In this document: positions 348 to 64,000 of the stretch, in pieces | How the letters are laid out: the number at the start of each line of letters is the position of its first letter | Position numbering within the stretch: position 1 is the first letter of the stretch | Assembly: GCF_026151205.1 (NCBI RefSeq) | Contig: NC_087077.1 | Coordinates: 20,147,975 to 20,211,974 of the forward strand | Length of the DNA stretch: 64,000 nucleotides | Source of the DNA: Bolinopsis microptera | Lineage: Eukaryota > Ctenophora > Tentaculata > Lobata > Bolinopsidae | Direction: 5' to 3' | Notes under the pieces: generated by a model | Database searches by the model: none | What the model was told of the DNA's origin: nothing | What the model saw: the letters and a program-made list of their open reading frames with translations, nothing else | Translations under genes and position numbers: made by a program

Positions 348-415
348 CTACAAAACTAAAACACTAAGGTAACTAGTAGTGTAACTATGGTAACTACAAA
401 ACTAAAACACTAAGG
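348..415. repeat. 22-bp direct repeat flanking an X-box-like palindrome
   Basis: The 22 bases at 348-369 recur exactly at 394-415. Between them lies a 24-bp insert that contains GTAACTATGGTAAC (381-394). This is a two-copy array with a 46-bp period, or an insertion with a long target duplication. Confidence 0.9.
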
Positions 416-604
416 GATCAAATTTCTTGACTCCAGTACCAGATGTTGTTAAAAGTGAGTGAACAGAAAACACGATGTGCTAAAGTTAAACTATGCGCAA
501 TACAGCTGCCCAATGCCCATATAACAGCTTTACAATGTCTAATGTCTATACTTATGTAACGTAGGTTCTGTAAATAGAAGTTTGAATACATTGTGAGAGT
601 AAAC

Positions 605-678
605 TGTAAACATGGTAACTATTAGTGTAACTATGGTAACTAGTAGTGTAACTATGGTAACTAGTAGTATGGTAACTG
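605..678. repeat. Short 21-bp tandem array (X-box family)
   Basis: About three copies of a 21-bp unit containing GTAACTATGGTAAC followed by TAGTAGT. The same unit forms the spacer of the arrays at 3210-6190 and 48057-49640. Confidence 0.85.
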
Positions 679-1170
679 TTTACATGGCCTGACCTACCTG
701 GAGTAGTTACTAATTCACAAACTCAAAGTAATTGCTCAACAAACGTAATGATGAACTTTAAAGACCGTTACTATTGTTTGTACTAGCTATAATGGTAGTA
801 CAGTTACGGAATGTATTTGTATCGACGGTCCGCGAAGTTATCAAAAAGAACCAGAATTCATAATTATTACATTACGCAATTCACTTGGAAGCCTTAGGGT
901 GGGCTTACGGCTCATGACCGCATACATAACCATGATACGTACCTCTAGAAAATATCGATGCTCTAACAGGTATACAAATCTTTTCTCTCGGCAAGGCCGA
1001 GCAACAAACTATAACAAACTATAACATAAACTATAACTATAACATAAAGCAAAACTTACCCAACAAAAAGTCCTTGAATCGGTGCACACCTCCCAAACAG
1101 CCTGTAGATAGCGAATCTGTTCTCGGAGTACGCGCGTTACGAAAACCTCGAAATTGGCAGGAACATGTTG

Positions 1171-1262
1171 CCACGTGACCCTAATTGAGACCAATGAGGG
1201 GGTTGCCCTGGTAACGCGTGATCTACCTGGGACTCCAATAGGAGGGTGGCAGGGTCACGTGG
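1171..1262. repeat. 12-bp inverted repeat with E-box core
   Basis: CCACGTGACCCT (1171-1182) is exactly inverted at 1251-1262, with a 68-bp spacer that holds GTTGCCCTGGTAAC, another X-box-like palindrome. It may be a small fold-back element or a paired regulatory site; no gene is attached. Confidence 0.6.
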
Positions 1263-1875: not shown

Positions 1876-1916
1876 GGAGGCACACGGCGGTACTGACTGT
1901 ACCGCCGTGTACCTCC
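1876..1916. other. GC-rich hairpin
   Basis: ACACGGCGGTAC (1882-1893) pairs perfectly with 1899-1910 around a 5-base loop. After one mismatch the stem continues for five more pairs (GGAGG with CCTCC). It is unusually GC-rich for this AT-rich region. Function unknown. Confidence 0.75.
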
Positions 1917-6960: not shown

Positions 6961-6976
6961 TCTGCCTCAGGACACT

Positions 6977-8012: not shown

Positions 8013-8047
8013 ACGTAACGCGTCACCATGGTAACGTAACGCGTCAC
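8013..8047. repeat. 14-bp direct repeat across an X-box-like palindrome
   Basis: ACGTAACGCGTCAC occurs at 8013-8026 and 8034-8047, a 21-bp period. The junction creates GTCACCATGGTAAC (8022-8035), which is close to the X-box consensus. Confidence 0.88.
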
Positions 8048-11224: not shown

Positions 11225-12831
11225 TGTAAGCAGTGATTAATTGAGAGGAATTTAGGGTAATATTGTGTAATATGTAGATAGTGTAATGATTATAATAAGG
11301 CGGTCGTGGGGTCCAGTATGTGACGTAGTATTTTGGGCATATATTAGTAGACGACAGTTATTGCAGTTTAAGTGCAGAGAGGTCAGTTTAACATATGTTT
11401 GAGTCAGTACGAGGTTGAATTATGGATTGTTTACAGAATACTAGTGATACTATGTTGTGGCTATCGACAGGACAGTTTGCAATTCCCGGGAAATGGTAGA
11501 TTGTTTAGACTATCAGAGCCCGGGAGGAAAATAGTGTTAGTTTTTGGAGATAGCGGAGTGCCAGTTTACCCGATCGAGAGGGGGGTCATTTTGATACCGG
11601 GCAGGTTCTGTAGCTAGAACCTGTTAAGGTTAGGTCGTTTAGTTAGGTAGATGGTTATAGTGGTAAGTATAAGATTGGCGGCCGTAGAATAGTGGGGCAT
11701 TACGTAATTACTGTTATCAGGCTTGGTTGTGGCCGACACCAGGGGATGTCTTGACAACACTGGGCTCTGGCAGAGCGGGAGTCAGCGCTGGTTGACTTAG
11801 ATAGGTAAAGCTAGACTAAGAGTAGGAGCTAGAACCGGTTAAGGTTAGGTCGTTTAGTTAGGCAGATGGTTATAGTGGTAAGTATAAGATTGGCGGCCGT
11901 AGAATAGTGGAGCATTACGTAATTACTGTTATTAGGCTTGGTTGTGGCCGACACCAGGGGATGTCTTGACAACACTGGGCTCTGGCAGAGCGGGAGTCAG
12001 CGCTGGTTGACTTAGATAGGTAAAGCTAGACTAAGAGTAGGAGCTAGAACCGGTTAAGGTTAGGTCGTTTAGTTAGGCAGATGGTTATAGTGGTAAGTAT
12101 AAGATTGGCGGCCGTAGAATAGTGGAGCATTACGTAATTACTGTTATCAGGCTTGGTTGTGGCCGACACCAGGGGATGTCTTGACAACACTGGGCTCTGG
12201 CAGAGCGAGAGCCAGCAATGGTTGACTCAGATAGGTAAAGCTAGATTAAGAGTAGGATTAACGGCAGGAAGTAGGTTGCGTAATATTTGAGGCAATATGA
12301 ATCGGAGCAATTAGGAATTTGTTGCACAGCATTTGAGGCAATATGAGTCTAAGTGACTAAGCGTTGGTTGAGCAAATATTCGATTATTCATTGTTCAGTT
12401 AAGTACCTTGGGCACCTTTATTATACCCCTTGTTTGCATTCTCACCCTATTCGATAGAGGGTCATGGTTGATACCAGACTAGTGTAAGGGACCAGGACCA
12501 GTTATGGTTGGGGCCTGGTGAGCACGGATGGAACGTGTCGTTAGAGGTTTAGAATCGACAGTGGTTATTTCAGGGCACCTAGATTAGGCACGGTCAAGGC
12601 GAGTTGACCGTGCTATCCGTGTTTTATGTTGCAGCACTAGATCGCTGAGCGTTTATGGGCGATACGAGTCTGGTTAATTAGGATTTGAAGTAGAGGTTGT
12701 CGAATTATTCATTGTATTGTTTCATAGTTTAGCTTTGTTTACCCTTTATTATCACGCTCGTTTCCATTGTCCAAACCCTTAATTAAATGCAAATAAACTT
12801 CGAACCGGGAAGCAAGTGTCGACTGCTTACA
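11225..12831 (+). repeat. 5' LTR
   Basis: 1607 bp, TGTAAGCAGT...ACTGCTTACA. Contains three 215-bp direct repeats and a polyadenylation signal AATAAA at 12792-12797, only about 35 bp before the end, implying a short U5. The small frame 11372-11617 recurs in the 3' LTR and has no known domain. Confidence 0.93.
11615..12260 (+). repeat. Three 215-bp direct repeats inside the 5' LTR
   Basis: Units start with TAGAACC at 11615, 11830 and 12045. The same three occur in the 3' LTR (about 19133-19778). First-unit variants in the 3' LTR match its own third unit, suggesting conversion between subrepeats. Confidence 0.9.
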
Positions 12832-12833
12832 AG

Positions 12834-13839: not shown

Positions 13840-14395
13840 TGAAGAGAGAGACAGTGTTTGTATTTTAATTAGTACACTGTTGAAGAGAGAGACAGTGTTT
13901 GTATTTTATTTTAATACTTTCAACACTACTATATAACAAATAATTTGAGTCAGGGAAGCGGCACTGAGAGAGGAACTGTTGAAGAGAGAGAGACAGTGTT
14001 TGTATTTTATTTTAATACTTTCAACACTACTATATAACAAATAATTTGAGTCAGGGAAGCGGCACTGAGAGAGGAACTGTTGAAGAGAGAGACAGTGTTT
14101 GTATTTTATTTTAATACTTTCAACACTACTATATAACAAATAATTTGAGTCAGGGAAGCGGCACTGAGAGAGGAATTGGCAGAGATAAAGATAGCTAATG
14201 AGGTAATGATGAGAGCGCGGCAGGAGGATGAGCTAGCAAACGAGAGAGGAATTGGCAGAGATAAAGATAGCTAATGAGGTAATGATGAGAGCGCGGCAGG
14301 AGGCTGAGCTAGCAAACGAGAGAGGAATTGGCAGAGATAAAGATAGCTAATGAGGTAATGATGAGAGCGCGGCAGGAGGCTGAGCTAGCAAACGA
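13840..14395 (+). repeat. Nested tandem repeats ahead of the gag-like region
   Basis: Two arrays abut. A unit of about 120 bp with TATAACAAATAATTTGAGTC occurs three times (13840-14170). It is followed by three copies of a 76-bp unit (14169-14395) that duplicates the start of the gag-like frame. Since 76 is not a multiple of three, only the last copy is in frame. Confidence 0.85.
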
Positions 14396-15367
14396 AGAGT
14401 TAAGGACTCAATATGATGAATTGAGGCAGCAGGGAGCACAGCTAAGAAGAGATGGATTCAGAGAGGGTAAGCTAGAAGCTAGGCAGGAGAAGGAGACCGA
14501 AAAGAGGAGAATCAGAGAAGCGAACAGAGCAGCGGGTAAGAAATACCCATTAATGAAACCTCGGATGTTTGTGCTGGGGAAACACAGCTTTAGAACCTTC
14601 CTGAGCGGGTTTAAAATATTTGCCAATGCTGCGGACATCTTGGATGAAGACTTGGTGGACATGATAATGACGTACTTGGACCCCAAGGCACAGAGGAGAG
14701 TGGAGACCCTTCGATTAACCCGGGACGAGAAGAGAAATGTAGAGGCGAGTTTGGAGAGGAGGACAGAGGTGCTATGTGATGTGCATTCAAAGGCGGGTGC
14801 AGGAAGAGACTTCTTGAGATGCGTCAGAAAGAGGAAGAGACAATTTCGGATTTTGCAGCTAGAGTCACTGACATGGCAGATGAGGCATATGCACCGGAGG
14901 AGGAGGAGATCAAGAAGACCATCAGGCTAGATGTATTTACAGCTGGGGTATTAAAGGATGAAATCGGGATCGAGTTAATCAAGTCACGAGTGCAAGATTT
15001 TGAGGCCGCGCTAAAGAGGGCAGTTAAGTTGGATGGGAGATCCTGGCGAGTCGTAGCCCTAAAACCAGGGAAGAATGAGGAGGAACTTTTGTTTCAAATC
15101 GAGGAGGATATAGAGATGGATGAGGGAGTGATAAACCGAGTGATGGAAGAGAACCGGCCGAGAAGAGACATCGGTGCTTGTTACACCTGTGGACAGCATG
15201 GACATTTCGCAAAGGAATGTAGAAAGCCCCCACTTGTCATGGATGCGGGAGACAGGGTCATATTGCAATGGATTGTACGCAAGGACACGGTGGCCGAGGA
15301 GGTCTTCAAAGAGGGCAAGATCCTCTTGTACAGAAAGCTATGGACGAAAGAAATTTATCATTGGTAG
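14328..15367 (+). pseudogene. gag-like gene, frameshifted, with CCHC zinc knuckles
   Basis: The first frame (to 14930) has a charged coiled-coil-like N-terminus and a capsid-like middle. The earliest ATG in it is at 14358; the in-frame triplet at 14328 is TTG. Near 14800-14820 homology passes to a second frame (to 15367) that resembles the gag region leading to the nucleocapsid. A zinc knuckle CYTCGQHGHFAKEC spans 15179-15220. A second one, CHGCGRQGHIAMDC, spans 15235-15276 but in the -1 frame, next to a CCCCC run. At least two frame changes therefore break the gene. Normal role in such elements: packaging of the RNA intermediate. Confidence 0.75.
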
Positions 15368-18742: not shown

Positions 18743-20349
18743 TGTAAGCAGTGATTAATTGAGAGGAATTTAGGGTAATATTGTGTAATATGTAGATAGT
18801 GTAATGATTATAATAAGGCGGTCGTGGGGTCCAGTATGTGACGTAGTATTTTGGGCATATATTAGTATACGTCAGTTATTGCAGTTTAAGTGCAGAGAGG
18901 TCAGTTTAACATATGTTTGAGTCAGTACGAGGTTGAATTATGGATTGTTTACAGAATACTAGTGATACTATGTTGTGGCTATCGACAGGACAGTTTGCAA
19001 TTCCCGGGAAATGGTAGATTGTTTAGACTATCAGAGCCCGGGAGGAAAATAGTGTTAGTTTTTGGAGATAGCGGAGTGCCAGTTTACCCGATCGAGAGGG
19101 GGGTCATTTTGATACCGGGCAGGTTCTGTAGCTAGAACCTGTTAAGGTTAGGTCGTTTAGTTAGGTAGATGGTTATAGTGGTAAGTATAAGATTGGCGGC
19201 CGTAGAATAGTGGGGCATTACGTAATTACTGTTATCAGGCTTGGTTGTGGCCGACACCAGGGGATGTCTTGACAACACTGGGCTCTGGCAGAGCGAGAGC
19301 CAGCAATGGTTGACTTAGATAGGTAAAGCTAGACTAAGAGTAGGAGCTAGAACCGGTTAAGGTTAGGTCGTTTAGTTAGGCAGATGGTTATAGTGGTAAG
19401 TATAAGATTGGCGGCCGTAGAATAGTGGAGCATTACGTAATTACTGTTATTAGGCTTGGTTGTGGCCGACACCAGGGGATGTCTTGACAACACTGGGCTC
19501 TGGCAGAGCGGGAGTCAGCGCTGGTTGACTTAGATAGGTAAAGCTAGACTAAGAGTAGGAGCTAGAACCGGTTAAGGTTAGGTCGTTTAGTTAGGCAGAT
19601 GGTTATAGTGGTAAGTATAAGATTGGCGGCCGTAGAATAGTGGAGCATTACGTAATTACTGTTATCAGGCTTGGTTGTGGCCGACACCAGGGGATGTCTT
19701 GACAACACTGGGCTCTGGCAGAGCGAGAGCCAGCAATGGTTGACTCAGATAGGTAAAGCTAGATTAAGAGTAGGATTAACGGCAGGAAGTAGGTTGCGTA
19801 ATATTTGAGGCAGTATGAATCGGAGCAATTAGGAATTTGTTGCACAGCATTTGAGGCAATATGAGTCTAAGTGACTAAGCGTTGGTTGAGCAAATATTCG
19901 ATTATTCATTGTTCAGTTAAGTACCTTGGGCACCTTTATTATACCCCTTGTTTGCATTCTCACCCTATTCGATAGAGGGTCATGGTTGATACCAGACTAG
20001 TGTAAGGGACCAGGACCAGTTATGGTTGGGGCCTGGTGAGCACGGATGGAACGTGTCGTTAGAGGTTTAGAATCGACAGTGGTTATTTCAGGGCACCTAG
20101 ATTAGGCACGGTCAAGGCGAGTTGACCGTGCTATCCGTGTTTTATGTTGCAGCACTAGATCGCTGAGCGTTTATGGGCGATACGAGTCTGGTTAATTAGG
20201 ATTTGAAGTAGAGGTTGTCGAATTATTCATTGTATTGTTTCATAGTTTAGCTTTGTTTACCCTTTATTATCACGCTCGTTTCCATTGTCCAAACCCTTAA
20301 TTAAATGCAAATAAACTTCGAACCGGGAAGCAAGTGTCGACTGCTTACA
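18743..20349 (+). repeat. 3' LTR
   Basis: 1607 bp, same ends and subrepeats as the 5' LTR. AATAAA at 20310-20315. Followed by ATAC, the target duplication. Confidence 0.93.
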
Positions 20350-22818: not shown

Positions 22819-22901
22819 ACGTAAGACTGACTGGTCAAGTTGCGGCCATTGTTACCGTTACCATGGTTACGTCAGACTGACGGGTGAAGTTGCAGCCAGT
22901 G
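22819..22901. repeat. 33-bp imperfect direct repeat flanking GTTACCATGGTTAC
   Basis: 22819-22851 and 22869-22901 match at most positions (shared blocks AGACTGAC, AAGTTGC and GCCA), with a 50-bp period. The palindrome GTTACCATGGTTAC (22857-22870) lies at the junction. Confidence 0.85.
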
Positions 22902-23196: not shown

Positions 23197-23250
23197 TCAG
23201 TGTGCGTGCTAGTTACCATAGTAACACCACTTGTAGTCAGTGTGCGTGCT
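23197..23250. repeat. 14-bp direct repeat flanking GTTACCATAGTAAC
   Basis: TCAGTGTGCGTGCT occurs exactly at 23197-23210 and 23237-23250. The palindrome GTTACCATAGTAAC (23212-23225) lies between. Confidence 0.9.
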
Positions 23251-45986: not shown

Positions 45987-47142
45987 ATACTCTCTCCCTT
46001 GCCATGTCAGTCCGCTTCCAGGCGTTGCTGTAAAATAATCTTTAGTACAGTACATCGGTTTGATAAAATAACTGGGTCTCCAGTCTTTAGTATAATCTTT
46101 ACACGGGTTTAATAGCCCGTAAAGCTAGGTCAGTAATCACACTTATCTCTAGCTGTAGTTATCACGCACCGTCTCCCTGCCTTCGTGCTGGATCTCAGGA
46201 TCTGACCTCGTAATCACATCTAACGCTACTTTAACCAACATATAATGTATAATCATGCAGAAGACGCAGTGTACATATTATATTACGAGCCACTAATCTC
46301 AAATCTGACAACTATACATTAATAGTCCTCATTTACTGCTTTTATTTGTCTTGTCTAAATGAGGGAACCCGTCTTGCAAACAGTAAGACGAAAATCTAGA
46401 GATTTTTCCATCCGGATATTCTGTCAAGTTTGTTTGGTTGTTTTGTTCATAGAACCCGTCCCCAATCTCGTATCCAGGGTTACAGTACTGTGTTACCATG
46501 GTTACAGTAACCCGTCCCCAATCTCGTATCGGAAAACGATCCAGCTCAATTGTGAGTGTAAATATGGGTGGAAGCTGCAATGGTATAATTAATATTCTGC
46601 CATCCTGTGGTAACCACAGGTAACCACAGTGTGGTAACCACAGGTAACCACAGTGTGGTTGCAATTAACTCACGATCCTACCATCGATAAGAGTAATTAT
46701 CATTTCCGACTGCTAGTAATAATTTTAATTATAGCTCCACTCCCCAGCTATAACATGTACTTATGATTGCACCAGTCAGCGGTCTTTAGTGGTTAGTACT
46801 GGTTACTAAGGGTTACTAAGGGTTACTAAGGGTTACTAAGGGTTACTAAGGGGTCGGTGTTTTGAAGCCATTGAAATCTGGACAAGGAAATGTGGGTAAG
46901 TGTATGGTTACTATAACTACTCCTTACTGTACTAACAGAGGAGGAGAGGGGTGATCTGGGTATGACATAATCCTGGCATACAGCTTCACGGGTGTACACT
47001 GTTATAACACACTGTATAACTAGTTAATAGTACTGTATAACTAGTTAATAGTTGTAATGTTTTGTTATTTCCCACAATCGTTAGTGCGAGCTCCCTCGCA
47101 GTACTGGGATCTGATAATGCTGCTAGGAGCTGCACACAGTAC
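45987..47142. other. Intergenic DNA with small repeats
   Basis: No gene. Holds the X-box duplication 46453-46530, paired TGTGGTAACCACA palindromes (46604-46660, RUNX-like TGTGGT half-sites) and six copies of GGTTACTAAGG (46802-46852). Confidence 0.5.
46453..46530. repeat. 22-bp direct repeat flanking GTTACCATGGTTAC
   Basis: The 22 bases at 46453-46474 recur exactly at 46509-46530 (period 56). The palindrome sits at 46492-46505 between them. Confidence 0.92.
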
Positions 47143-47292
47143 AGTGTAACCATGGTTACAGTACTGTGTTACCATGGTTACAGTACTGTGTTACCAGGTT
47201 ACAGTACTGTGTTACCATGGTTACAGTGCTGTGTTACCAGGTTACAGTACTGTGTTACCATGGTGACAGTACTGTGTTACCATGGTTACAGT
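47143..47292. repeat. 22-bp minisatellite with GTTACCATGGTTAC
   Basis: About seven copies of ACAGTACTGTGTTACCATGG plus TT, two with a shortened TTACCAGGTTAC. ACAGTACTGT is a second palindrome. Confidence 0.93.
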
Positions 47293-47894
47293 ACGCTTTT
47301 GTGTGTTATCGATCAGCTTGGATCCTATAGATCGAGCTATTTTGCCGTACGATATTTACTCTGCTTTGATAGCATTTGCCGGGAATACGGATTTCTTTGT
47401 CTTTTTGCCTTTAGTGAATATTTATCTGCTATTTTTGAGTTGCCGGACGCCGGTATATATATATATTATATATATATATATATAATATATATAATATATA
47501 GTATCTGAAAACGGCTTAATCGACTCATTTTGAAACTTTGATTTTACGGTTGAATTATCCATAAATAAAATGGAATCATCCCATATTTAATTTTTACATC
47601 TGAGTTTAGTAACACTAACAAATTGAGAATAACATTTTATTTGAGTAAATAAACCCTGCTTGTCTGGTTTCTCTAGATAATGATAGTTTCTTACTTTACA
47701 TAACTAACTATTTCCCTTTAGTTCACTATCCTACTATTTCCCTTATTAGTTACAGTAAAGGTTTATAGTTTGCTCTAAGTTAACTTAACTTGCTCTAAGT
47801 TATTACACTAACCCACTATTTACTCTAAGTTTACTAACCCACTATTTGCTATGTAGTTTACTAACCCACTATTTGCTATGTTATAGCCGTTAGG
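47293..47894. other. 5' flank of the tetraspanin gene
   Basis: An AT dinucleotide tract (47456-47500) and three copies of AACCCACTATTTGCTATGT-like sequence (47808-47882) just before the start codon. A promoter is probably here, but I cannot place it. Confidence 0.45.
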
Positions 47895-48056: not shown

Positions 48057-51000
48057 GTAAGTAGTGTAACTATAGTAACTAATAGTGTTTGGGGTGGGGG
48101 TGTCACTAGTTCTCTCCCCTCTACCTCTCCCTGCTGGCAAAGATGTAAGTAGTGTAACTATGGTAACTAGTAGTGTAACTATGGTAACTAGTAGTGTAAC
48201 TATGGTAACTAATAGTGTTCGGGGTGGGGGTGTCACTAGTTCTCTCTCCTCTACCTCTCCCTGCTGGCAAAGATGTAAGTAGTGTAACTATGGTAACTAG
48301 TAGTGTAACTATGGTAAATAGTAGTGTAACTATGGTAACTAGTAGTGTAACTATGGTAACTAGAAGTGTAACTATGGTAACTAGTAGTGTAACTATGGTA
48401 ACTAATAGTGTTCGGGGTGGGGGTGTCACTAGTTCTCTCTCCTCTACCTCTCCCTGCTGGCAAAGATGTAAGTAGTGTAACTATGGTAACTAGTAGTGTA
48501 ACTATGGTAAATAGTAGTGTAACTATGGTAACTAGTAGTGTAACTATGGTAACTAATAGTGTTCGGGGTGGGGGTGTCACTAGTTCTCTCCCCTCTACCT
48601 CTCCCTGCTGGCAAAGATGTAAGTAATGTAACTATGGTAACTAGAAGTGTAACTATGGTAACTAGTAGTGTAACTATGGTAACTAATAGTGTTCGGGGTG
48701 GGGGTGTCACTAGTTCTCTCCCCTCTACTTCTCCCTGCTGGCAAAGATGTAAGTAGTGTAACTATGGTAACTAGTAGTGTAACTATGGTAACTAGTAGTG
48801 TAACTGTGGTAACTAATAGTGTTCGGGGTGGGGGTGTCACTAGTTCTCTCCCCTCTACCTCTCCCTGCTGGCAAAGATGTAAGTAATGTAACTATGGTAA
48901 CTAGAAGTGTAACTATGGTAACTAGTAGTGTAACTATGGTAACTAATAGTGTTCGGGGTGGGGGTGTCACTAGTTCTCTCCCCTCTACTTCTCCCTGCTG
49001 GCAAAGATGTAAGTAGTGTAACTATGGTAACTAGTAGTGTAACTATGGTAACTAGTAGTGTAACTATGGTAACTAATAGTGTTCGGGGTGGGGGTGTCAC
49101 TAGTTCTCTCCCCTCTACCTCTCCCTGCTGGCAAAGATGTAAGTAATGTAACTATGGTAACTAGAAGTGTAACTATGGTAACTAGTAGTGTTTGGGGTGG
49201 GGGTGTCACTAGTTCTCTCCCCTCTACCTCTCCCTGCTGGCAAAGATGTAAGTAGTGTAACTATGGTAACTAGTAGTGTAACTATGGTAACTAGTAGTGT
49301 AACTATAGTAACTAATAGTGTTTGGGGTGGGGGTGTCACTAGTTCTCTCCCCTCTACCTCTCCCTGCTGGCAAAGATGTAAGTAGTGTAACTATGGTAAC
49401 TAGTAGTGTAACTATGGTAACTAGTAGTGTAACTATGGCAACTAATAGTGTTCGGGGTGGGGGTGTCACTAGTTCTCTCCCCTCTACCTCTCCCTGCTGG
49501 CAAAGATGTAAGTAGTGTAACTATGGTAACTAGTAGTGTAACTATGGTAACTAGTAGTGTAACTTTGGTAACTAATAGTGTTCGGGGTGGGGGTGTCACT
49601 AGTTCTCTCCCCTCTACTTCTCCCTGCTGGCAAAGATGTAAGTACAGTTAATGTTGCAAATTTTGATATTCTGTAAGTTGGTCCCAATTAGACACAAACT
49701 TTCGACATTTTACCGTCCTCAAGATTTTTTAAATTTTAATACTCTGTAGCGAATTGGTTTGTTTGAACCTTTTTCGAAGAAAAAGACATTATTCTAAGCA
49801 AACAGTCAACAAATTCTTCTCAAAGTGTTATAGTATTTATATTTGTGCTGTGTTACCATGGTTACAGTACTGTGTTCTCATTGTGCCCTTATAATCTACA
49901 TGTTTATCTGCGATAGCTGATAACAGTAAATAGAACGGGTCGTCTGTCCAGCTACTTACAGATTAGAAGTTAAGATTACGTAATAAGAATAACTAACATA
50001 ATATGTCATATATATGTTATTATGTGCTAACATTACTAATAATAACGAGCTAATCCTATTCTCTCAGATCTCTGTAATCTACGGAACTTTACTGATATCA
50101 GCAGTTATAGTGATACTAGTGGTGAGTAGTAGGATATTATTAGTAATATATTACATAAATTACTAAGTAGTAGGATATTATTAGTAATATATTACATAAA
50201 TTACTAAGTAGTAGGATATTATTAGTAATATATTACATAAATTACTAAGTAGTAGGATATTATTAGTAATATATTACATAAATTACTAAGTAGTAGGATA
50301 TTATTAGTAATATATTACATAAATTACTAAGTAGTAGGATATTATTAGTAATATATTACATAAATTACTAAGTAGTAGGATATTGTAAAATCCGGATTGG
50401 AGTATTATTTATGAGTCGCATTGTTGTAATGTATTCTGGGTAAAATTATCTTTATCCCGGTTGTTGCGACAAGTAAAAATGCTCTTATTAGGGAAAGGAG
50501 ATTACTCGACGTTTCAATGTAACTACATCGTATTCATGATCTAAAAACAAGTGTTAAAAATTCAAAACGTAAAAAACATATATCTGAGGCAAAATTTGTG
50601 TACATTAATTTATTTTTAATCAATCAACTTTATCCAAAAATTCGATACAAAAAAGTCATAACAAAATAGTAGGATATTATTAGTAATATGTTACATAAAT
50701 TACTAAGTAGTAGGATATTATTAGTAATATATTACATAAATTACTAAGTAGTAGGATATTATTAGTAATATATTACATAAATTACTAAGTAGTAGGATAT
50801 TATTAGTAATATATTACATAAATTACTAAGTAGTAGGATATTATTAGTAATATATTACATAAATTACTAAGTAGTAGGATATTATTAGTAATATATTACA
50901 TAAATTACTAAGTAGTAGGATATTATTAGTAATATATTACATAAATTACTAAGTAGTAGGATATTATTAGTAATATATTACATAAATTACTAAGTAGTAG

Positions 51001-53784
51001 GATATTATTAGTAATATATTACATAAATTACTAAATAGTAGGATATTATTAGTAATATATTACATAAATTACTAAGTAGTAGGATATTATTAGTAATATA
51101 TTACATAAATTACTAAGTAGTAGGATATTATTAGTAATATATTACATAAATTACTAAGTAGTAGGATATTATTAGTAATATATTACATAAATTACTAAGT
51201 AGTAGGATATTATTAGTAATATATTACATAAATTACTAAGTAGTAGGATATTATTAGTAATATATTACATAAATTACTAAGTAGTAGGATATTATTAGTA
51301 ATATATTACATAAATTACTAAGTAGTAGGATATTATTAGTAATATATTACATAAATTACTAAGTAGTAGGATATTATTAGTAATATATTACATAAATTAC
51401 TAAGTAGTAGGATATTATTAGTAATATATTACATAAATTACTAAGTAGTAGGATATTATTAGTAATATATTACATAAATTACTAAGTAGTAGGATATTAT
51501 TAGTAATATATTACATAAATTACTAAGTAGTAGGATATTGTAAAATCCGGATTGGAGTATTATTTATGAGTCGCATTGTTGTAATGTATTCTGGGTAAAA
51601 TTATCTTTATCCCGGTTGTTGCGACAAGTAAAAATGCTCTTATTAGGGAAAGGAGATTACTCGACGTTTCAATGTAACTACATCGTATTCATGATCTAAA
51701 AACAAGTGTTAAAAATTCAAAACGTAAAAAACATATATCTGAGGCAAAATTTGTGTACATTAATTTATTTTTAATCAATCAACTTTATCCAAAAATTCGA
51801 TACAAAAAAGTCATAACAAAATAGTAGGATATTATTAGTAATATGTTACATAAATTACTAAGTAGTAGGATATTATTAGTAATATATTACATAAATTACT
51901 AAGTAGTAGGATATTATTAGTAATATATTACATAAATTACTAAGTAGTAGGATATTATTAGTAATATATTACATAAATTACTAAGTAGTAGAATATTATT
52001 AGTAATATATTACATAAATTACTAAGTAGTAGGATATTATTAGTAATATATTACATAAATTACTAAGTAGTAGGATATTATTAGTAATATATTACATAAA
52101 TTACTAAGTAGTAGGATATTATTAGTAATATATTACATAAATTACTAAGTAGTAGGATATTATTAGTAATATATTACATAAATTACTAAGTAGTAGGATA
52201 TTATTAGTAATATATTACATAAATTACTAAGTAGTAGGATATTATTAGTAATATATTACATAAATTACTAAGTAGTAGGATATTATTAGTAATATATTAC
52301 ATAAATTACTAAGTAGTAGGATATTATTAGTAATATATTACATAAATTACTAAGTAGTAGGATATTATTAGTAATATATTACATAAATTACTAAGTAGTA
52401 GGATATTATTAGTAATATATTACATAAATTACTAAGTAATAGCATATTATTAGTAATATATTACATAAATTACTAAGTAGTAGGATATTATTAGTAATAT
52501 ATTACATAAATTACTAAGTAGTAGGATATTATTAGTAATATATTACATAAATTACTAAGTAGTAGGATATTATTAGTAATATATTACATAAATTACTAAG
52601 TAGTAGGATATTATCAGTCATATATTACATAAATTACTAAGTAGTAGGATATTATTAGTAATATATTACATAAATTACTAAGTAGTAGGATATTATTAGT
52701 AATATATTACATAAATTACTAAGTAGTAGGATATTATTAGTAATATATTACATAAATTACTAAGTAGTAGGATATTATTAGTAATATATTACATAAATTA
52801 CTAATGGTGAGTTCACAAGACAGCTGGTACAGTTACAATTCCGGTTGGAACTTTGCCAACTTGGTGGCAAACATAGTTTCCTTTAGAAGAAGGTCTTCAT
52901 TAGCCACTCCTCCTGATCAGGGACAAAAGGAAATCGCGGCATGTGTGGAATCGCGATTTTCCCCATTATTTGCGACAAATTTTATGTATAGTCTTATGTA
53001 TAGTCTGTTAAAAATCGCGGTATCGCGATTTTTGGGCATAATAATTGCGATTTTCTTTTGTCCCCGCTCCTGATCAATGAGGGATATAAAATCTTTGTAA
53101 CTTAAAAGCTTTCAATCACATTACTTCACACTAAACCCTTACTCCTTCATAAACTTCAACATATTTCAGGGCATGCTGGGTATTCACGGCTGCTACTGGG
53201 TTCAAGAAAACAGACTGAAACTCTACGCTGTCTCCACGATAGCAGCTATTGTGTTAGAAGCAGGGCTCGGATCCATGGCCATTATAAAGGAGCAGTCCAT
53301 CATGGACCACATAGACTCGACCCTGGAGAACTTCAGAAGCATGAACAGTAACCATAGTAACATGCCTTTACGGGAGTACAGACAGTCTCAGTACGATACT
53401 AACGCTACCTACAAGAACATTGTGGATAACGTGCACACAGAGCTATCCTGCTGCTCCTTTATAAATATTAGCAATAACATCAGCTCCTGTCACCACCGTA
53501 TCAGTGGTACACCTCTACCAGGCTGTGTGGAAACCTTCAGGGACTTTATCAATATCAAGCTAACTTACATACGGTGTTTAGCATTCATGTTGGTTCCTAT
53601 CCAGTTGTTCTGTTTAGGGTTTGATCTGATGGTTCTGAAGACACTGCAGGTTACTAAGGAGTACGATAAGTTGGAGAGGGAACTGAGTAATAGAAAGAGG
53701 GAGAAGAGGAACAGTATGGGGTACACTACTATTGGGGATGTGGAGAACATTAACCTACAGGCTGCGTACAATAGAGTGGTGTAA
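47895..53784 (+). CDS. Tetraspanin, three exons (47895-48056, 50068-50121, 53170-53784)
   Basis: The spliced product has 276 residues, a typical tetraspanin length. Tetraspanins organise membrane microdomains with integrins and other receptors. TM1 lies at about 20-45 and TM2 at 55-79, ending in LGIHGCYWVQENR, the counterpart of the family's GxCGAxxEN motif. TM3 is at about 89-111. The large extracellular loop (about 112-205) has four cysteines: CCS at 166-168 (usually CCG), then C179 and C191 (PLPGC). TM4 is at about 206-231, followed by a 45-residue basic tail. Several N-glycosylation sequons occur in the loop. Both introns are phase 0 with good sites: GAT|GTAAGT...CTCAG|ATC and GTG|GTGAGT...TTCAG|GGC. 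Oddities: the first extracellular loop is very short; both introns are almost entirely minisatellite; the stop codon lies inside an X-box palindrome. The subfamily cannot be assigned. Confidence 0.93.
48057..49640 (+). repeat. Intron 1 minisatellite that repeats the exon 1 end and its splice donor
   Basis: Units consist of a 67-bp copy of the end of exon 1 (from AATAGTGTTCGGGGTGGGGG to GCAAAGAT|GTAAGTA) followed by one to six 21-bp X-box units (GTAACTATGGTAAC). Donor-like GTAAGT occurs at 48057, 48145, 48275, 48468, 48619, 48749, 48879, 49009, 49139, 49248, 49378, 49508 and 49638. Every step is 1 modulo 3 (67 plus multiples of 21). Confidence 0.95.
50068..50121 (+). CDS. Tetraspanin exon 2
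   Basis: 18 codons, ISVIYGTLLISAVIVILV, forming most of TM2. The acceptor TTCTCTCAG (to 50067) and donor GTG|GTGAGT (50122) are both strong and phase 0. Confidence 0.88.
50385..50666. repeat. 282-bp insert in the intron 2 array, copy 1
   Basis: Begins GTAAAATCCGGATTGG and ends CATAACAAAA; flanked on both sides by TAGTAGGATATT from the array. It could be a small retroposon or MITE; no clear internal promoter or inverted ends. Confidence 0.85.
51540..51821. repeat. 282-bp insert in the intron 2 array, copy 2
   Basis: Appears identical to 50385-50666, in the same place in the unit and 1155 bp further on, so it was copied together with the surrounding array. Confidence 0.88.
52918..53066 (+). 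mobile_element. 149-bp hAT-type MITE in intron 2
   Basis: Ends CAGGGACAAAAGGAAATCGC and ...TTTTGTCCCCG as imperfect terminal inverted repeats. An exact 8-bp target duplication, CTCCTGAT, lies at 52910-52917 and 53067-53074. CAGGG ends and 8-bp duplications are hAT hallmarks. It matches the reverse complement of 60084-60232. Confidence 0.92.
53170..53784 (+). CDS. Tetraspanin exon 3 (last)
   Basis: 204 codons plus stop. Codes the end of TM2, TM3, the large extracellular loop with the four cysteines, TM4 and the tail. The acceptor is CATATTTCAG (to 53169). The stop TAA (53782-53784) is within GTAACCATGGTTAC (53781-53794). A diverged copy of the tail-coding sequence follows at 53835. Confidence 0.93.
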   Translation, partial: GMLGIHGCYWVQENRLKLYAVSTIAAIVLEAGLGSMAIIKEQSIMDHIDSTLENFRSMNSNHSNMPLREYRQSQYDTNATYKNIVDNVHTELSCCSFINISNNISSCHHRISGTPLPGCVETFRDFINIKLTYIRCLAFMLVPIQLFCLGFDLMVLKTLQVTKEYDKLERELSNRKREKRNSMGYTTIGDVENINLQAAYNRVV

Positions 53785-54381
53785 CCATGGTTACGTCTGG
53801 TAACTACTGGTTACTAGTCTGGTAGCTACTAGCAACAGAAAGAGAGAGAGAAGAGGAACAGTAATAGTGTTGTGGACTATGAAGAACATCAATCTACACA
53901 CTACATACGATACAATTACTGGTAAAGCATTCTGGTAGCGAGTTTAGTTGCCATGGCATTAGAGTTGCAATGTTTAAGAATTGCCCAATATGAACACTCC
54001 TATCTCCACATGGCTATCTACAACTAACTCTAACCTTGTATGTAACTACTCCAGGAGGAGCTATGTAAAGAGTACAGCAAGATAGGGATTGGGACAGAAC
54101 AGTGAACAGTTGGACCTTGCTACGACTTTTAAAGTTACTACAGCGTGATTTCGTGACTGTGATCTTGAATCCCGAGACCTGACTCCTGACGGAACGATTA
54201 GGTTTAATGAGAACAATTTACCACGACTGATCAATTTTAAGTCTGTGCATAATATTACAGTCTACTCGAGAGATTGGAGATATATACATGATCATGAAGC
54301 CATGACATTATAGCTGCAGTAACAGTGATCCTAGAAGTGCAAACCAATGAATGAGAGATGGGGAGATTATTATGGTGATCT
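53785..54381. other. 3' flank of the tetraspanin gene
   Basis: Holds the tail duplicate (53835-53925). Near 54054 CTCCAG is followed by a short frame resembling the KEYDK part of the tail and ending in TGA, perhaps another decayed copy or an alternative end. Confidence 0.45.
53835..53925 (+). pseudogene. Diverged copy of the tetraspanin tail-coding sequence
   Basis: Aligns with 53690-53781 through AGAAAGAG.GAGA.GAAGAGGAACAGTA, then GAACAT.AA.CTACA and TACGATACAATT. It lies just after the X-box palindrome that holds the stop codon, so the gene end is duplicated across that palindrome. Confidence 0.8.
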
Positions 54382-55130: not shown

Positions 55131-55740
55131 TGGCTGGATATTTATTTTTTAAAGCTCCATGTATAACTAAACCAACTTTTCTTAAAGCCTAAGTATTTAT
55201 TATTTTGAGAGTTTGCGAGATAACCGTTAGCATACGAATTTAATAATGTTGTGCTTGCTGGAGTTTCAATAACCATGGTAATTTGCGAAGTTTTAAAATT
55301 TTTCTGCGTTTTGATTTGTGCATTTTCTTTCCAACTAGTTTATACATGATCGTGTGAGATTTGCTAATTTGTTATATTTATTTTGATTTTCAACTTTATT
55401 TGAACTAACATTTACTTTGCTCAGTTTATATAACAAATATTCCGTGTTGTTACTTTGTCTAAGCGGTTTCGCAAATAATCAAAAAATAATTGACTGTCAA
55501 AAATAAATACAGTTCAGCTCTTATACCAGGTTATGTAAAGGTGGAATGCACATTCAAATTTGAGATCTGACGAAAATTACAAATGTTCTTTCTACTCAAT
55601 AATTATTTATTCATAACGATTTTATATTGTGTCTTCATCGGTCAATTGGAAGTTGGTTGAAAAGTATAGGTTAACAAATGCGATTGGCAATATTTGATCA
55701 GTACAAGTTTTGGAGGTCTAGAATGGCCAAATAACGCCAA
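55131..55740. other. Unique AT-rich DNA
   Basis: No gene. One ATAACCATGGTAAT near 55270. Confidence 0.5.
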
Positions 55741-56650
55741 CACGAGCAGTAACCATGGCAACACGAGCAGTGTGATATATAAACTGAGCAGTAACCATGG
55801 CAACACGAGCAGTGTGATATATAAACTGAGCAGTGTTACCATGGCAACACGAGCAGTGTAATATATAAACTGAGCAGTGTTACCATGGCAACACGAGCAG
55901 TGTGATATATAAACTGAGCAGTGTTACCATGGCAACACGAGCAGTGTGATATATAAACTGAGCAGTGTTACCATGGCAACACGAGCAGTGTGATATATAA
56001 ACTGAGCAGTGTTACCATGGCAACACGAGCAGTGTAATATATAAACTGAGCAGTGTTACCATGGCAACATGAGCAGTGTGATATATAAACTGAGCAGTGT
56101 TACCATGGCAACATGAGCAGTGTGATATATAAAGTGAGCAGTGTTACCATGGCAACACGAGCAGTGTGATATATAAACTGAGCAGTGTTACCATGGCAAC
56201 ATGAGCAGTGTGATATATAAACTGAGCAGTGTTACCATGGCAACACGAGCAGTGTGATATATAAACTGAGCAGTGTTACCATGGCAACACGAGCAGTGTG
56301 ATATATAAACTGAGCAGTGTTACCATGGCAACATGAGCAGTGTGATATATAAACTGACCAGTGTTACCATGGCAACACGAGCAGTGTGATATATAAACTG
56401 AGCAGTGTTACCATGGCAACATAAGCAGTGTGATATATAAACTGAGCAGTGTTACCATGGCAACATGAGCAGTGTGATATATAAACTGAGCAGTGTTACC
56501 ATGGCAACACGAGCAGTGTGATATATAAAGTGAGCAGTGTTACCATGGCAACACGAGCAGTGTGATATATAAACTGAGCAGTGTTACCATGGCAACACGA
56601 GCAGTGTGATATATAAACTGAGCAGTGTTACCATGGCAACACGAGCAGTC
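55741..56650. repeat. 44-bp minisatellite with GTTACCATGGCAAC
   Basis: About 20 copies of GAGCAGTGTGATATATAAAC plus TGAGCAGT and the near-ideal X-box GTTACCATGGCAAC. Confidence 0.95.
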
Positions 56651-57535
56651 GACAGAGTCCCCACTTTTACCAAAGACTTTATACAAAGAGGGAGAAGAAG
56701 AATAGAGTGGTGTAACCATGGTAATTTCTGTTAACTACTGGTTACTAGAAGTAACCATGGCTACATAACGCCAACACGAGCAGTCGACAGAGTCCCCACT
56801 TTTACCAAAGAGTCCCCACCTTTACCAAAGACTTTTGATTTTATGACAGATTCTGCAAACAGTCACATTGCTATTCCTCGGTCATTGCAATTAGAATATT
56901 AGTGCAGAACTATAGAATACAGAGTTGTTAAACTCTTAAACTATATCGAAACATTTGTCAAGTTATTTAGGATTCCATTAGAAAGGTATCCCATCGTGAT
57001 TCAAAGTTAAAGTTTTTGAGGCGTAGTATTTTAGGTACCCTTTAATAGCTTAGAACCTATTTTAATGCCTTAAAAACTTTGCTAAGTTCGAACTTGGCGC
57101 CCCGACTTAAAGTTTTTGACGGTTTATCAAAGAGTTGAGAGATGAAGAAGATTCGAACAAGCTGACTTTTTTACTTTCTGCATTATGCATGGCTGAACAA
57201 AAACAAATTTTCTAAATTTTATTATTAGAGCACATATTCGATGAAGAAATGTTCTATAGTTATACTGCTGTTATAGTATGAACCACTGTTATAAGAAACT
57301 GATGAACTTATTATTATTATTGATACAGCATCCAAACTCAGATCCCAAGTCCTGTAAAGTTCTTTTCTGTGTAATTTTTGCCATAAAAAAGTTGATCGAT
57401 ATAAATTTCAGTTTAAAGTTTTCTTTATTATTAATACTTTAATAAGTTAATACTAGCCCCTCTGATTCTGAAACTTAAATGGAAAGATATCAGCCTTCAT
57501 ACTCCGAGAGCAGCCACCTTAGAGGAAGAAGGCCA
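56651..57535. other. Unique DNA with a tetraspanin 3'-end fragment and the start of a segmental duplication
   Basis: 56686-56748 resembles the end of the tetraspanin gene and its flank (GAGGGAGAAGA, AATAGAGTGGTGTAACCATGG, TAACTACTGGTTACTAG). GTCCCCACTTTTACCAAAGA occurs at about 56656 and 56792. From about 57005 the sequence resembles 61.6 kb. Confidence 0.6.
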
Positions 57536-58900: not shown

Positions 58901-58904
58901 GAAA

Positions 58905-60000: not shown

Positions 60001-60083
60001 GAGTGAGAAGATGTCTTTTAGCCTTGGTACGTTCTTGCCATCTTGGAGAGGGAGGCTTGCTGGCAGTTAGAGAGGGTCACACA

Positions 60084-60232: not shown

Positions 60233-60251
60233 GTCACACAGCGTCGGCCAC

Positions 60252-61024
60252 TAAGTGTTTTCGTCAGTGTCGGAAGCATTCTGTTTCGTAGGTACGTCAG
60301 TGTCGGAAGCATTCTGTTTCGTAGGTACGTCAGTTTCGGAAGCATTCTGTTTCGTAGGTACGTCAGTGTCGGAAGCATTCTGTTTCGTAGGTACGTCAGT
60401 GTCGGAAGCATTCTGTTTCGTAGGTACGTCAGTGTCGGAAGCATTCTGTTTCGTAGGTACGTCAGTGTCGGAAGCATTCTGTTTCGTAGGTACGTCAGTG
60501 TCGGAAGCATTCTGTTTCGTAGGTACGTCAGTGTCGGAAGCATTCTGTTTTGTAGGTACGTCAGTGTCGGAAGCATTCTGTTTCGTAGGTACGTCAGTGT
60601 CGGAAGCATTCTGTTTCGTAGGTACGTCAGTGTCGGAAGCATTCTGTTTCGTAGGTACATCAGTGTCGGAAGCATTCTGTTTCGTAGGTACGTCAGTGTC
60701 GGAAGCATTCTGTTTCGTAGGTACGTCAGTGTCGGAAGCATTCCGTTTCGTAGGTACGTCAGTGTCGGAAGCATTCTGTTTCGTAGGTACGTCAGTGTCG
60801 GAAGCATTCTGTTTCGTAGGTACGTCAGTGTCGGAAGCATTCTGTTTCGTAGGTACGTCAGTGTCGGAAGCATTCTGTTTCGTAGGTACGTCAGTGTCGG
60901 AAGCATTCTGTTTCGTAGGTACGTCAGTGTCGGAAGCATTCTGTTTCGTAGGTACGTCAGTGTCGGAAGCATTCTGTTTCGTAGGTACGTCAGTGTCGGA
61001 AGCATTCTGTTTCGTAGGTAGGTT
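60252..61024. repeat. 33-bp minisatellite
   Basis: About 23 near-identical copies of GTCAGTGTCGGAAGCATTCT plus GTTTCGTAGGTAC. Eleven codons per unit keep three frames open over both strands; none is credible as a gene. Confidence 0.95.
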
Positions 61025-62084
61025 CAGGTTCTGCTTAGCAGTGTAGGAGTTAAGTTCCCAGCAGGACTAGTTGGGTGAGTATGGGGTTTAGTGCTCAGGA
61101 CAGTGGAGTCGTCTATAAGCTCAGGATTCGTTTATTAAATAAATCAAAGTTGGCCGCCGCAAATCATATTGACGCATTAAATGGCATAGTGTGTTATGAA
61201 ACTCTAGGTCTTGGTTTTTAGATATAAATGCTAAGATATATGTGATTTGATAACTTTTTTTCAAGCACGTTTATGAAGAGTTTCTTTTTGGCATAGATCC
61301 AATCAATAAAGCCATGCATCTAATGTCCGGCATAAGTTAACTATGTGTAACCATGGTAACTAGGGTAATGTCCGGCAACAGTTTTGGACGTTCCATGTTA
61401 TTCCGGCACCCTGGAATTTGACCATAAAATTAAAAGTTTCGGTACCGTTTGAAACTTTACGGAAGTTTGGTGGTCCGACAATGTTTTTGGTCCGAAGTTG
61501 GCCGGTCCGGTCATTGCCGTTCCACTATATAAGCATTCAAGTATAATCAATTTCTCCTTGTAACATCATATAAATACCTTTAAAACACCGCAAAGTTCTA
61601 ACTTGGCGCTGGTTTATCGAAGAGTCGAAGGATTGAAAAGATTTCAAACAGCTTGTTTTTATTTGATTTGAACAGTTTACTTTCACTTATCTGTCATTAT
61701 CGATAATATCCTTGGCTTACTTTTACCACATAATTTGTTGCTTTGTCTTGTTTGAAGTTCTACTTTTCACGATCAAATAGAGTCCTCGAATGAAGCTGCC
61801 AAAGGCTGCTGTTTCAGGTAAATAGGTGCAATACAGAATACTTAACAGTTTTACTTATCATTACAGGTGTCTTCATCGTCACAAAGGGTATGGTAGGACT
61901 TAACTAACTTGAGGTATTCTACTATGGTCAATAATTTAGTTAGGTTTTTGGACAGCTTGTACTTCTATAAATATATTTGATATAGTTCTATTTGATTTAA
62001 TAGTCCATCAGGGTCCAGTAGTTCTTTAGGTTTTACTGATAGCCCTGTTTGCATTCAACAGTCCATTTAACAGTCCATTTAAGG
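61025..62084. other. Unique DNA and segmental duplication block B
   Basis: Includes the X-box duplication 61321-61377 and, from about 61585, the blocks matching 57.0-58.7 kb. No gene apart from the small frame that follows. Confidence 0.5.
61321..61377. repeat. 12-bp direct repeat flanking GTAACCATGGTAAC
   Basis: TAATGTCCGGCA at 61321-61332 and 61366-61377 (period 45) brackets the palindrome at 61347-61360. Confidence 0.88.
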
Positions 62085-62210
62085 ATGGAGGATGAATTCT
62101 CCGCATTCCAACAGTATTTTGTGTTGTTCACTGTGCTGATTCCGGGAAGCATTCTCTTTACGCTCTCATTATATTGTACGATAAGATATCGTTTATTTAA
62201 AATTGAATAA
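62085..62210 (+). CDS. Possible 41-residue single-pass microprotein
   Basis: ATG with A at -3 and G at +4. Acidic start (MEDEF), a hydrophobic segment at about 11-31 (YFVLFTVLIPGSILFTLSLYC) and a basic end (RYRLFK). The layout suits a small membrane protein, but no family is recognised. A related start (GAATTCTCCGCAT) at 57738 is cut by a stop. Frames this short arise by chance. Confidence 0.25.
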   Translation: MEDEFSAFQQYFVLFTVLIPGSILFTLSLYCTIRYRLFKIE

Positions 62211-64000
62211 TTATGGACCTGTCAAGGATTGCAGCCCAGTTAAGAGCTACTTGTGCCATGTAAGGGATAACTGAGGTCAAGTGACCACCGATCCTATCAC
62301 GTGACCGCCGAGTACAATAGGAATAGGGCTTATCTTAGTGTTTGTTTAGCTTATCAGTAGTTTTAAAAGCACTCCGTGGGAAATTGATGTGGTGTCTTGA
62401 CATTTATCTAATTCACGCGTGAGAAACTCACGCGTTACGGCGGAGTAGGGCTCGAAAGGGTGTAGTCAAGGTTCTTTTTTATTACGTTTACATTGGTTTA
62501 GCTGAAAGTGGATTAATTTGTTTAATAGTTATATCCTGTAGTACAACGTGTACTCCACCAATTGTTGAGTATTGAGACCTATTGAAAGTTATATTATGCA
62601 GCCCTACGCGATCCCTGCCAAACCAACTGAAGTCCTATAAAGCAAGTAAATTATTGATACCCCCATTTTTAATTCTATTCGGATTTCGGATTTACTTAAC
62701 ATTATCATCGAGACACACTTCTCACCTTTACTAAGTTATTGTTGAAATCTAGCGGGGCTACAACCAAATTGTTGACACACACTTCTATCCTTTTCTGTTT
62801 CTGATATCGGGACATACTTCTCGATCGTTTAGTTATAGTGACTGTAGAAATCAGCATCTGTTATAGTTAGCCCAACTTACCACTTCAGTTTGATAACGTA
62901 GAGTAAAACCTAGTTTACTACTATAAACTAATTTAGAATCTACGAAGGAAAGTTATTGATTGAAGCTTTTCTTTTCTACTAGCAACTGATATATTTACTC
63001 TTTTAGAATGTTTCAGTGGTGCTATAACGCTGATAAAAATATCAGTAATTTCCTTCAAATGCAAAATGTTTCAATTTGATGATCTGATATCTGATAAGGA
63101 TAGATAACATTTCACGTCTCTGAGCACTACTAGGATAAACACTAATTTTTACTGTAGAAATAAACGGACAGATTCCGATTTCGAATAATCAAATTGTACG
63201 ATCAGAAACTACATTCTCGGCTTTAATTTGGACGATTTGCCAGTTCCAATGCTCATAATATAATTACTAATTATGCTCATAATTACTAATTAGGCCTCTT
63301 TAGGTTTGGGCATTTTTGGCTGGGTAAAACGCACTGTAACACTGGTAACAGTAACCACTTATAACCATGGTAACCAGTTATTTGAGAATTTTCTGTACTC
63401 TGTACTCATACTCAGGGCCCGTTTATAATGTTGACCGCTAATGCAGGTTTGGTAACGCTTAAATTAGGTCCGATTTGGGAGTATTTTACTTACTGAGTAC
63501 TATAAAGTTATTATATCGTTAACTTCAGCCAATCTCGACCTGAATCCTTTCACCTCCCCTTAAAGGCGTGACATTACATCTCCTTAGAACATTACAAACT
63601 TCCCTAGCGATTAAAAGTGCAAACTTCAAGGGATTGGCGGTTTCTCAAAGACTTTTTGAATGAAAAACGATCTCAAACAGGTAAGTTTTTTAGTTTGTGT
63701 ATTGTGAGTGGCTTCTACTAATTTAAAGTTTTCTCTTTTATGCATAATATATAATATATAATAGCGCATACTTCTTTTCATACCTTCATCGGAAAACTAT
63801 GAAGAAATATTTTAGATCACAATAAATTGTAACTAAAAGGATTTTAACGGGTGATACTCGTAAAATATCTGTTCCATATATAGGACCGTCGACGAGTCCA
63901 ACTCGGCGCGCGTCCTGGTAGGTTGTAAACCTACAAAAAGGATTCACACGTGTGCACAACTCAACAGTAACCATGGTAACTAACAAATCAACAGTTATCA
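62211..64000. other. Unique DNA, end of the window
   Basis: No gene recognised. Hairpin ACGCGTGAG-AAA-CTCACGCGT at 62415-62435. Part of duplication block B to about 63100, and a weaker third copy at about 63580-63790. GTAACCATGGTAAC at 63967-63980 is flanked by TCAACAGT on both sides (63961-63968 and 63988-63995). Confidence 0.5.

Follow-up and report, generated by a model that had tools for sequence, protein, structure and literature searches.

Why does one short motif in the genome of the ctenophore Bolinopsis microptera repeatedly sit between two copies of whatever local sequence surrounds it? An earlier note on this DNA had proposed either a mini mobile element or a newborn minisatellite, the latter with a filler by which repair joins the copies of a tandem duplication. 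The window, i.e., the whole stretch of DNA analysed (64,000 nucleotides), holds the nine A-filler-A sites noted earlier (A being the duplicated local sequence); all are real and located as reported. With no strand assigned, these are 348-415 (22-bp copies at 348-369 and 394-415; filler 370-393 with GTAACTATGGTAA(C)), 8013-8047 (14-bp copies at 8013-8026 and 8034-8047; filler CATGGTA), 22819-22898 (imperfect copies; filler 22849-22868), 23197-23250 (14-bp copies; filler 23211-23236), 25208-25260 (10-bp copies; filler 25218-25250), 32052-32096 (15-bp copies with one mismatch; filler 32067-32081), 46453-46530 (22-bp copies; filler 46475-46508), 61321-61377 (12-bp copies; filler 61333-61365) and 63956-63995 (filler 63969-63982). 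Re-scoring set the imperfect copies at 22819 to 30 bp (33 earlier) and those of the last site to 13 bp with one mismatch instead of 8 bp, the first copy beginning at 63956. Adding four sites from the adjoining 80 kb gave a set of 13; sites beyond the window (e.g., 137579) are numbered along the window plus this extension, the region totalling 144 kb, 5 kb of it N.

The shared motif, which we take to be similar to the RFX-bound X-box consensus GTTRCC-AT-GGYAAC, is less uniform than first described. It had been called a palindrome constant between sites; it takes five forms over the nine sites (GTAACTATGGTAAC, GTCACCATGGTAAC, GTTACCATGGTTAC, GTTACCATAGTAAC and GTAACCATGGTAAC), and "palindromic" is an overstatement since only one of the 13 sites carries a perfect 14-bp palindrome (8-bp palindromic core in 9/13, 2-bp core in 3/13). 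Matches to the RFX DNA-binding domain are present in this genome and the sequence likeness makes the motif a putative site, but here 299 of the 344 X-boxes in the 144-kb region belong to tandem arrays. The CENP-B box is one motif shared by unrelated satellites; judged from sequence alone, the X-box is alike in that a single short motif, of a kind that proteins might bind, recurs across many arrays of unrelated sequence. Two other identities were considered for the motif: a telomerase-type filler was rejected because the motif is, on inspection, not telomeric, and the ctenophore loop-anchor (CTEP) motif, described as GC-rich with two CpGs (PMC12221973), was rejected because the X-box contains no CpG. 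Among the matches listed from the open-licence PMC literature, judged by title and opening of the abstract, no paper describes X-box minisatellites in ctenophores.

Tight flanking repeats, defined by a score of at least 10 at +1/-2, were found at 10 of the 22 isolated motifs of the window (the ninth site, too close to the window edge, being excluded) versus 35 of 1600 random unmasked positions, and at 8/20 motifs once two array-linked sites (87 and 48066) were removed (Fisher p=1e-8). The adjoining 80 kb, outside the earlier reader's view, gave 4/14 versus 45/1975 (p=3e-4), and a looser scan of the window plus the adjoining stretch gave 22/42 versus 384/3000. The comparison with random sites, which the earlier note had proposed genome-wide, therefore supports an excess in the window and the adjoining 80 kb but not in two samples from elsewhere: in a C1 sample the isolated motifs had 3/43 against 72/1294 for controls whose rate is raised because arrays were left unmasked (p=0.44), and in 60 kb from C2, C3, C9, C10 and C12 tight flanks occurred at 0/3 motifs versus 22/2004 controls. 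The structure itself extends beyond the motif. Some 101 kb of the region is unmasked, and this sequence contains 59 close A-filler-A structures, as compared to 1, 2, 0, 2 and 1 when it is resampled five times under a first-order Markov model; in 50 of these 59 the filler holds no X-box. X-box fillers are nonetheless over-represented: there are 9 among the 59, or 4.5 times the 2.0 that local DNA taken at random would give (p=1.4e-4).

Comparison with copies lacking the motif, as the earlier note had suggested, bears on how these structures arose. Copies with one flank and no palindrome exist at three loci, two of them recognized by paralogues and one as an exact copy of an array locus. At 137579 the single flank copy of the empty paralogue differs at one base; the 63956 site has an empty paralogue at C6:20216161-20216306, plus two further filled copies. 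The third locus is a 44-bp X-box array (55738-56649, no strand assigned) carrying CAACACGAGCAGT at both outer ends (55738-55750 and 56637-56649): on the forward strand at 56765-56811, its outer flanks are joined over one CAACACGAGCAGT with no X-box, the 47-mer matching exactly. Paralogues of 61321 (C6:20327549-20327825), 101447, 105136 and L052 are filled and thus uninformative on the empty state.

These empty copies weigh on two alternatives. One supposes that the X-box came first and that its hairpin provoked a duplication around itself, in keeping with the general knowledge that inverted repeats can stall polymerases. Duplicating a pre-existing A-X would leave two X-boxes rather than one, the empty copies hold none, 12 of the 13 motifs are imperfect palindromes, and other fillers give the same structure; already disfavoured by the empty copies, this order of events seems very improbable to us. 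The other alternative, to which we attach only slightly more weight, is that a fragment of an array was inserted with the flank repeat as part of the inserted piece, so that no target was duplicated. It is suggested by L073 (C1:1230888), where both paralogues lack the insert as well as the repeated flank, which indicates that the repeats came with the insert; there the repeat TGCTACTA plus the motif is similar to a 21-bp array unit. At 137579, 63956 and 55738, by contrast, the flank is present in the empty copy.

The empty-copy comparisons are unrooted, and loss by deletion between A copies is therefore possible at these loci. Evidence of polarity comes from one exon, the C1 coding-exon site L085, where the motif-encoded peptide is missing from two homologues; the insert there is accordingly derived, with a length change of 7 codons where 9 are expected. 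A tetraspanin exon (window 53173-53781) was also considered as a polarity case and set aside: its motif-encoded SNHSN is common to the closest homologue and the stretch is variable in others, so it gives no polarity.

The origin of the fillers is most clearly traced at 46453, where a filler 31-mer occurs three times in 264.65 Mb: at the site itself and in two array units 676 and 719 bp away. These units, at 47154 and 47197 of a 22-bp X-box array (47136-47294, no strand assigned), are the sole other exact copies in the genome, and the filler reaches beyond the X-box into this one particular array. Weaker donor cases are 127514, with a filler 18-mer occurring eight times, once in an array about 450 bp off, and the 22819 and 25208 sites, which have in common a 19-mer with seven genome copies. 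At 348 a 29-mer made up of the filler and the adjoining 2 and 3 bp of its flanks recurs 287 bp off, one among 15 further copies that the 144-kb region contains. A donor is not always close, since a 31-mer of the L010 filler has exact matches on C12 alone, and its one-mismatch relatives on C1 lie some 44 kb off. Among the 13 fillers, the minimal ones centred on the X-box do not allow a donor to be identified. Junction microhomology was computed and, because motif calling favours motif-completing flanks and so biases it, left out as support.

Several fillers are nearly bare X-boxes, whole or partial, with 0-1 extra bases (32052, 101447, 105136 and 137579). They are what a tiny mobile element might leave: a discrete X-box unit would be inserted by a trans-acting enzyme, and the target duplication would be long and variable, like that of target-primed reverse transcription. 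The over-representation of X-boxes among fillers fits the same idea, and so does their abundance (exact motifs at 786 and 1991+1827 places, arrays included, versus 1 and 0+2 when the motifs are reversed). Across the 13 sites, however, duplications range from 10 to 30 bp and fillers from 7 to 34 bp with ends that differ between fillers, so that neither the fixed duplication length nor the constant ends of a DNA transposon or MITE are seen; the variable target duplication of a non-LTR retrotransposon or SINE is present, and inspection of the 13 fillers revealed no common 3' end or tail. The tie between the 46453 filler and an array about 0.7 kb off, together with the 50 structures whose filler has no X-box, indicates that what is inserted is no discrete element, and an imperfect palindrome in 12 of 13 sites also speaks against one. 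We regard a mobile element as unlikely, and a transposable element in general as an unlikely source; this part of the earlier interpretation is not supported.

How single sites relate to arrays is visible in paralogue pairs: 95346 has two units and its paralogue one, as does 124684, whose filler is not an X-box. The direction of change is unrooted in both pairs, which would also suit dying minisatellites, with A-X-A as the remnant of a contracted longer array. The X-box-free copies at three loci and the two homologues lacking the motif at the L085 exon argue against contraction, as do array lengths. By our own reading, the remainder left after whole copies is shorter than a quarter unit in 12 of the 16 X-box arrays whose edges are clear; it is longer than a quarter in 12 of the 13 single A-X-A sites. 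Arrays of this kind would thus not normally contract to A-X-A, and we think this origin improbable. The 16 arrays derive from 31 rows, counting the 48148-49644 array, which falls into ten blocks, as one and leaving out six rows without clear edges (3240, 55738, 101192, 118958, 119560 and 120010). The same leftover lengths qualify the claim that larger arrays are amplified versions of single sites, which holds in part only. A flank repeat at both array ends is seen at 55738 and apparently at 126981; array ends as proof of plain A(XA)n amplification were rejected because most arrays do not show this pattern.

Taken together, we consider it reasonably probable that A-filler-A sites are short tandem duplications whose filler is copied, that either the repair of a break or a template switch produced them, and that they can seed minisatellites. 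A staggered-end break or stalled fork would lead to some 7-30 bp of local sequence being copied twice; before the two A copies are joined, one end would copy a short stretch of another template, often an X-box minisatellite. The two A copies could then let the unit (filler plus A) duplicate through slippage or unequal exchange, and the new minisatellite may in turn act as a donor. Several elements of this scheme are presumed: that the breaks are staggered, that classical end joining or polymerase theta acts on them, which way the unrooted loci have changed, and what makes X-boxes the preferred filler. Both remaining options of the earlier interpretation, repair that joins a duplication by way of a filler and the newborn minisatellite, gain support from the one-flank, motif-free copies, from a 46453 filler with exact matches in a local array only, and from the one- and two-unit paralogues.

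Comparable products are known. When breaks have protruding ends, their repair can yield tandem duplications whose inserts are templated in cis (Schimmel et al., 2017, PMC5730883); these are likewise short, local and of variable length, with an insert sometimes copied from nearby. The breaks there are nuclease-induced, whereas here one motif family recurs as filler and some products grow. In our data, the empty one-flank copy expected of such duplications is found at three loci and fails at L073, and a template elsewhere is found, clearly at 46453. Models in which minisatellites arise out of direct repeats, noncontiguous or flanking (Taylor and Breden, 2000; Haber and Louis, 1998, as cited in PMC3389668), also have a unit bounded by flank repeats that expands by slippage, as the one- and two-unit states here would suggest. 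Those models, as cited, begin from pre-existing repeats, while the copies without flank repeats or filler suggest here a single event making both together. At double-strand breaks, the insertion of interstitial telomeric repeats similarly places a defined motif, with occasional flank duplication (6/130 rodent and 4/25 primate loci; PMC2246262); that motif is telomeric, and the one described here is non-telomeric with one filler traced to a genomic donor. The repair chemistry is known already; the recurrence of one motif among the fillers seems to be new.

A more speculative extension, which we put forward tentatively, is that the X-box is a self-spreading 14-bp motif without an enzyme of its own, passing from repair-copied filler to new flank, new minisatellite and next donor, and seeding many unrelated families genome-wide. 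The birth of minisatellites is usually inferred afterwards; this region holds empty, one-unit, two-unit and array states and one traceable donor, and these successive states make birth models directly testable. If a transcription-factor-like motif is preferentially copied, repair would scatter potential RFX sites across an animal genome and would even spread short peptides into coding exons.

All nine places in the window where a single X-box, a palindrome-like motif of about 14 bp, had been described between two copies of its local flank (348, 8013, 22819, 23197, 25208, 32052, 46453, 61321 and 63956) were confirmed present. For an unbiased test, every isolated motif was scanned: it could differ from the motif by up to a single mismatch, lay neither in a tandem array nor at the end of a sequence, and had no other motif within 70 bp. 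A flanking repeat was called tight at a flank-repeat score (+1/-2) of at least 10. Tight repeats occurred at 10 of 22 isolated motifs in the window versus 35 of 1600 random positions (8/20 without two array-linked sites), and at 4 of 14 versus 45 of 1975 in the adjoining 80 kb, into which site numbers above 64,000 continue. Within 60 kb from contigs C2, C3, C9, C10 and C12, 0/3 isolated motifs versus 22/2004 random positions had them. Contig C1 was sampled at 35 loci from 100 listed places of the imperfect motif GTAACCATGGTAAC and 20 loci from listed places of the exact palindrome GTTACCATGGTAAC, leaving out motif-cluster loci (L009, L011-L023, L043, L087-L091); once sites close to another motif had been dropped, 28 + 15 = 43 remained. 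This sample gave no enrichment at a score of at least 10 (3/43 motifs versus 72/1294 controls), and counts at the looser cut-off of at least 8 were 7/43 and 163/1294. Both motif listings begin with C1, so other contigs are thinly sampled; eight more sites (8 of 19 listed places, on C7, C8, C9, C11 and C13) scored 9, 12, 6, 8, 20, 5, 6 and 3 without formal test, the 20 lying inside an array. The excess over random sites that the earlier note anticipated thus holds in the window and the adjoining 80 kb and fails in the C1 sample: the effect is strong in this C6 region and, elsewhere, is seen at single sites.

The window is C6:20147975-20211974, some 0.72 Mb short of the end of this 20.93 Mb contig, in an assembly of 264.65 Mb; a table in PMC11797021 lists 13 chromosomes and 265 Mb for B. 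microptera. Across the whole genome, arrays counted in, GTTACCATGGTAAC has 786 sites versus 1 for the reversed motif, and GTAACCATGGTAAC has 1991 + 1827 on the two strands versus 0 + 2 reversed. The imperfect form of the motif is about five times commoner than the perfect palindrome (arrays counted in), so complete palindromic symmetry is not the thing copied. The name X-box follows the RFX-site consensus, and we take the motif to be a putative RFX site; the genome has matches to the RFX DNA-binding domain. X-box-like motifs also lie at 53348-53361, inside a tetraspanin-like coding exon where the motif encodes SNHSN, a peptide shared with the closest homologue, and at 53781-53794, at that exon's stop codon. 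Several occur close to one gene's end at C1:799952-801451 (L112), one in a coding exon, one directly after the stop codon and the rest apparently intronic. An interspersed family carries a central X-box with CACGTG-rich sequence on either side and no tight flank duplication (C1 loci L027, L032, L033, L034, L037, L041, L042, L077, L078 and L083); it makes up 7 of the loci in one set of 20.

X-boxes are one filler among many. A scan of roughly 101 kb of unmasked sequence for flank-filler-flank structures (filler 5-45 bp, score at least 11) found 59, versus 0-2 in five resamples. The filler contained an X-box in nine and lacked one in 50, of which at least four (1701, 27252, 53795, 77715) carry X-box-like sequence in the flank copies. 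If fillers were drawn at random from this DNA with its arrays, 2.0 X-box fillers would be expected (P(≥9) = 1.4e-4); with five duplicates taken out and the array-like site 77 discounted, which leaves 8, the excess persists at p = 4e-4. X-boxes are therefore about 4.5-fold over-represented among fillers relative to their share, inside a general process.

Joined flanks of 13 sites, the nine and four in the adjoining 80 kb, were used as genome-wide queries for empty copies. A single flank without the motif, the pattern that the earlier note proposed to look for in related strains or species, was found at 137579 (inverted paralogue C6:20244615-20244853, one base different), at 63956 (four copies, one empty and three filled) and for the 44-bp array that spans 55738-56649, whose exact empty counterpart lies at 56765-56811; all these comparisons are unrooted. 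Both copies are filled at 61321, at 101447 and at the locus L052; at 105136 the paralogue is filled and additionally duplicated. For the remaining 8 of 13 sites, no second copy spanning the site was among the matches listed. The pattern failed at L073, where both paralogues lack the insert and the repeated flank too, which marks this locus as an inserted fragment. Several paralogues come from a large inverted segmental duplication at C6:20241829-20291974 (L046-L051), its inverted pieces about 75-92% identical. Within the window, a 1.6-kb duplication (11225-12832 and 18743-20350, 99.6% identical) carries a 3-unit 215-bp satellite in each copy, and ORFs at 14328-15367 presumably resemble a zinc-knuckle gag protein of a retroelement.

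Polarity can be read in a C1 coding exon (L085; flank TCAGCCTCC, filler TGGTAACCATGGTAACGG, score 9, under the cut-off of at least 10). The peptide encoded there, GNHGN, is missing from two homologues (90% and 68% identical), so the insertion is, by this protein comparison, derived. The net length change is 7 codons, two short of the 9 expected.

Donors were sought for individual fillers. A 31-mer of the 46453 filler has three exact occurrences genome-wide, one in the filler and the others in two array units 676 and 719 bp downstream on the same strand. The 18-mer of the 127514 filler has 8 occurrences, one within an array about 450 bp away; a 19-mer common to the fillers of 22819 and 25208 has 7 genome copies, these two sites included; the filler at 348, extended by 2 and 3 bases into its flanks, is matched by a 29-mer at a distance of 287 bp, and the region holds 15 such copies. 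For L010, the filler 31-mer matches exactly only on C12; relatives with a single mismatch lie on C1 at a distance of about 44 kb. Minimal X-box fillers cannot be traced to a donor.

The most likely working account is fill-in and joining of breaks with protruding ends, with copied filler and later slippage. Filling in and joining the ends would duplicate the overhang (A), array sequence with an X-box (X) would be copied in between to give A-X-A, and the two A copies would then permit slippage to more units. In cis copied inserts are a described by-product of joining breaks with protruding ends (PMC5730883). Template switching at a replication fork may also be the source of A-X-A, since it would yield the identical product. 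The slippage step of the fill-in and joining account resembles two published models, one by Haber and Louis and one by Taylor and Breden, in which slippage starts from flank copies (as cited in PMC3389668).

Growth from such units is visible at 95346, which has two units versus one in its paralogue (flank GCAGTGT, filler TACTATGGTAACTA, middle flank copy one base different), and likewise at 124684, with a non-X-box filler; the array at 126981 resembles A(XA)3. These cases agree with the suggestion that larger arrays are amplified versions; 12 of 16 clear-edged arrays, by our own reading of array edges, speak against it, with a leftover of less than a quarter unit. Most of today's arrays have therefore either lost an A(XA)n founding structure or started another way.

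Duplication with templated filler and minisatellite birth from flanked units are already known. A bolder reading, that the X-box motif spreads by repair alone, is doubtful, and draws on a single clear local donor and, for the most part, a single region. What seems new here is that one motif recurs and is over-represented among the fillers, and that empty, one-unit, two-unit and array states can be seen together.
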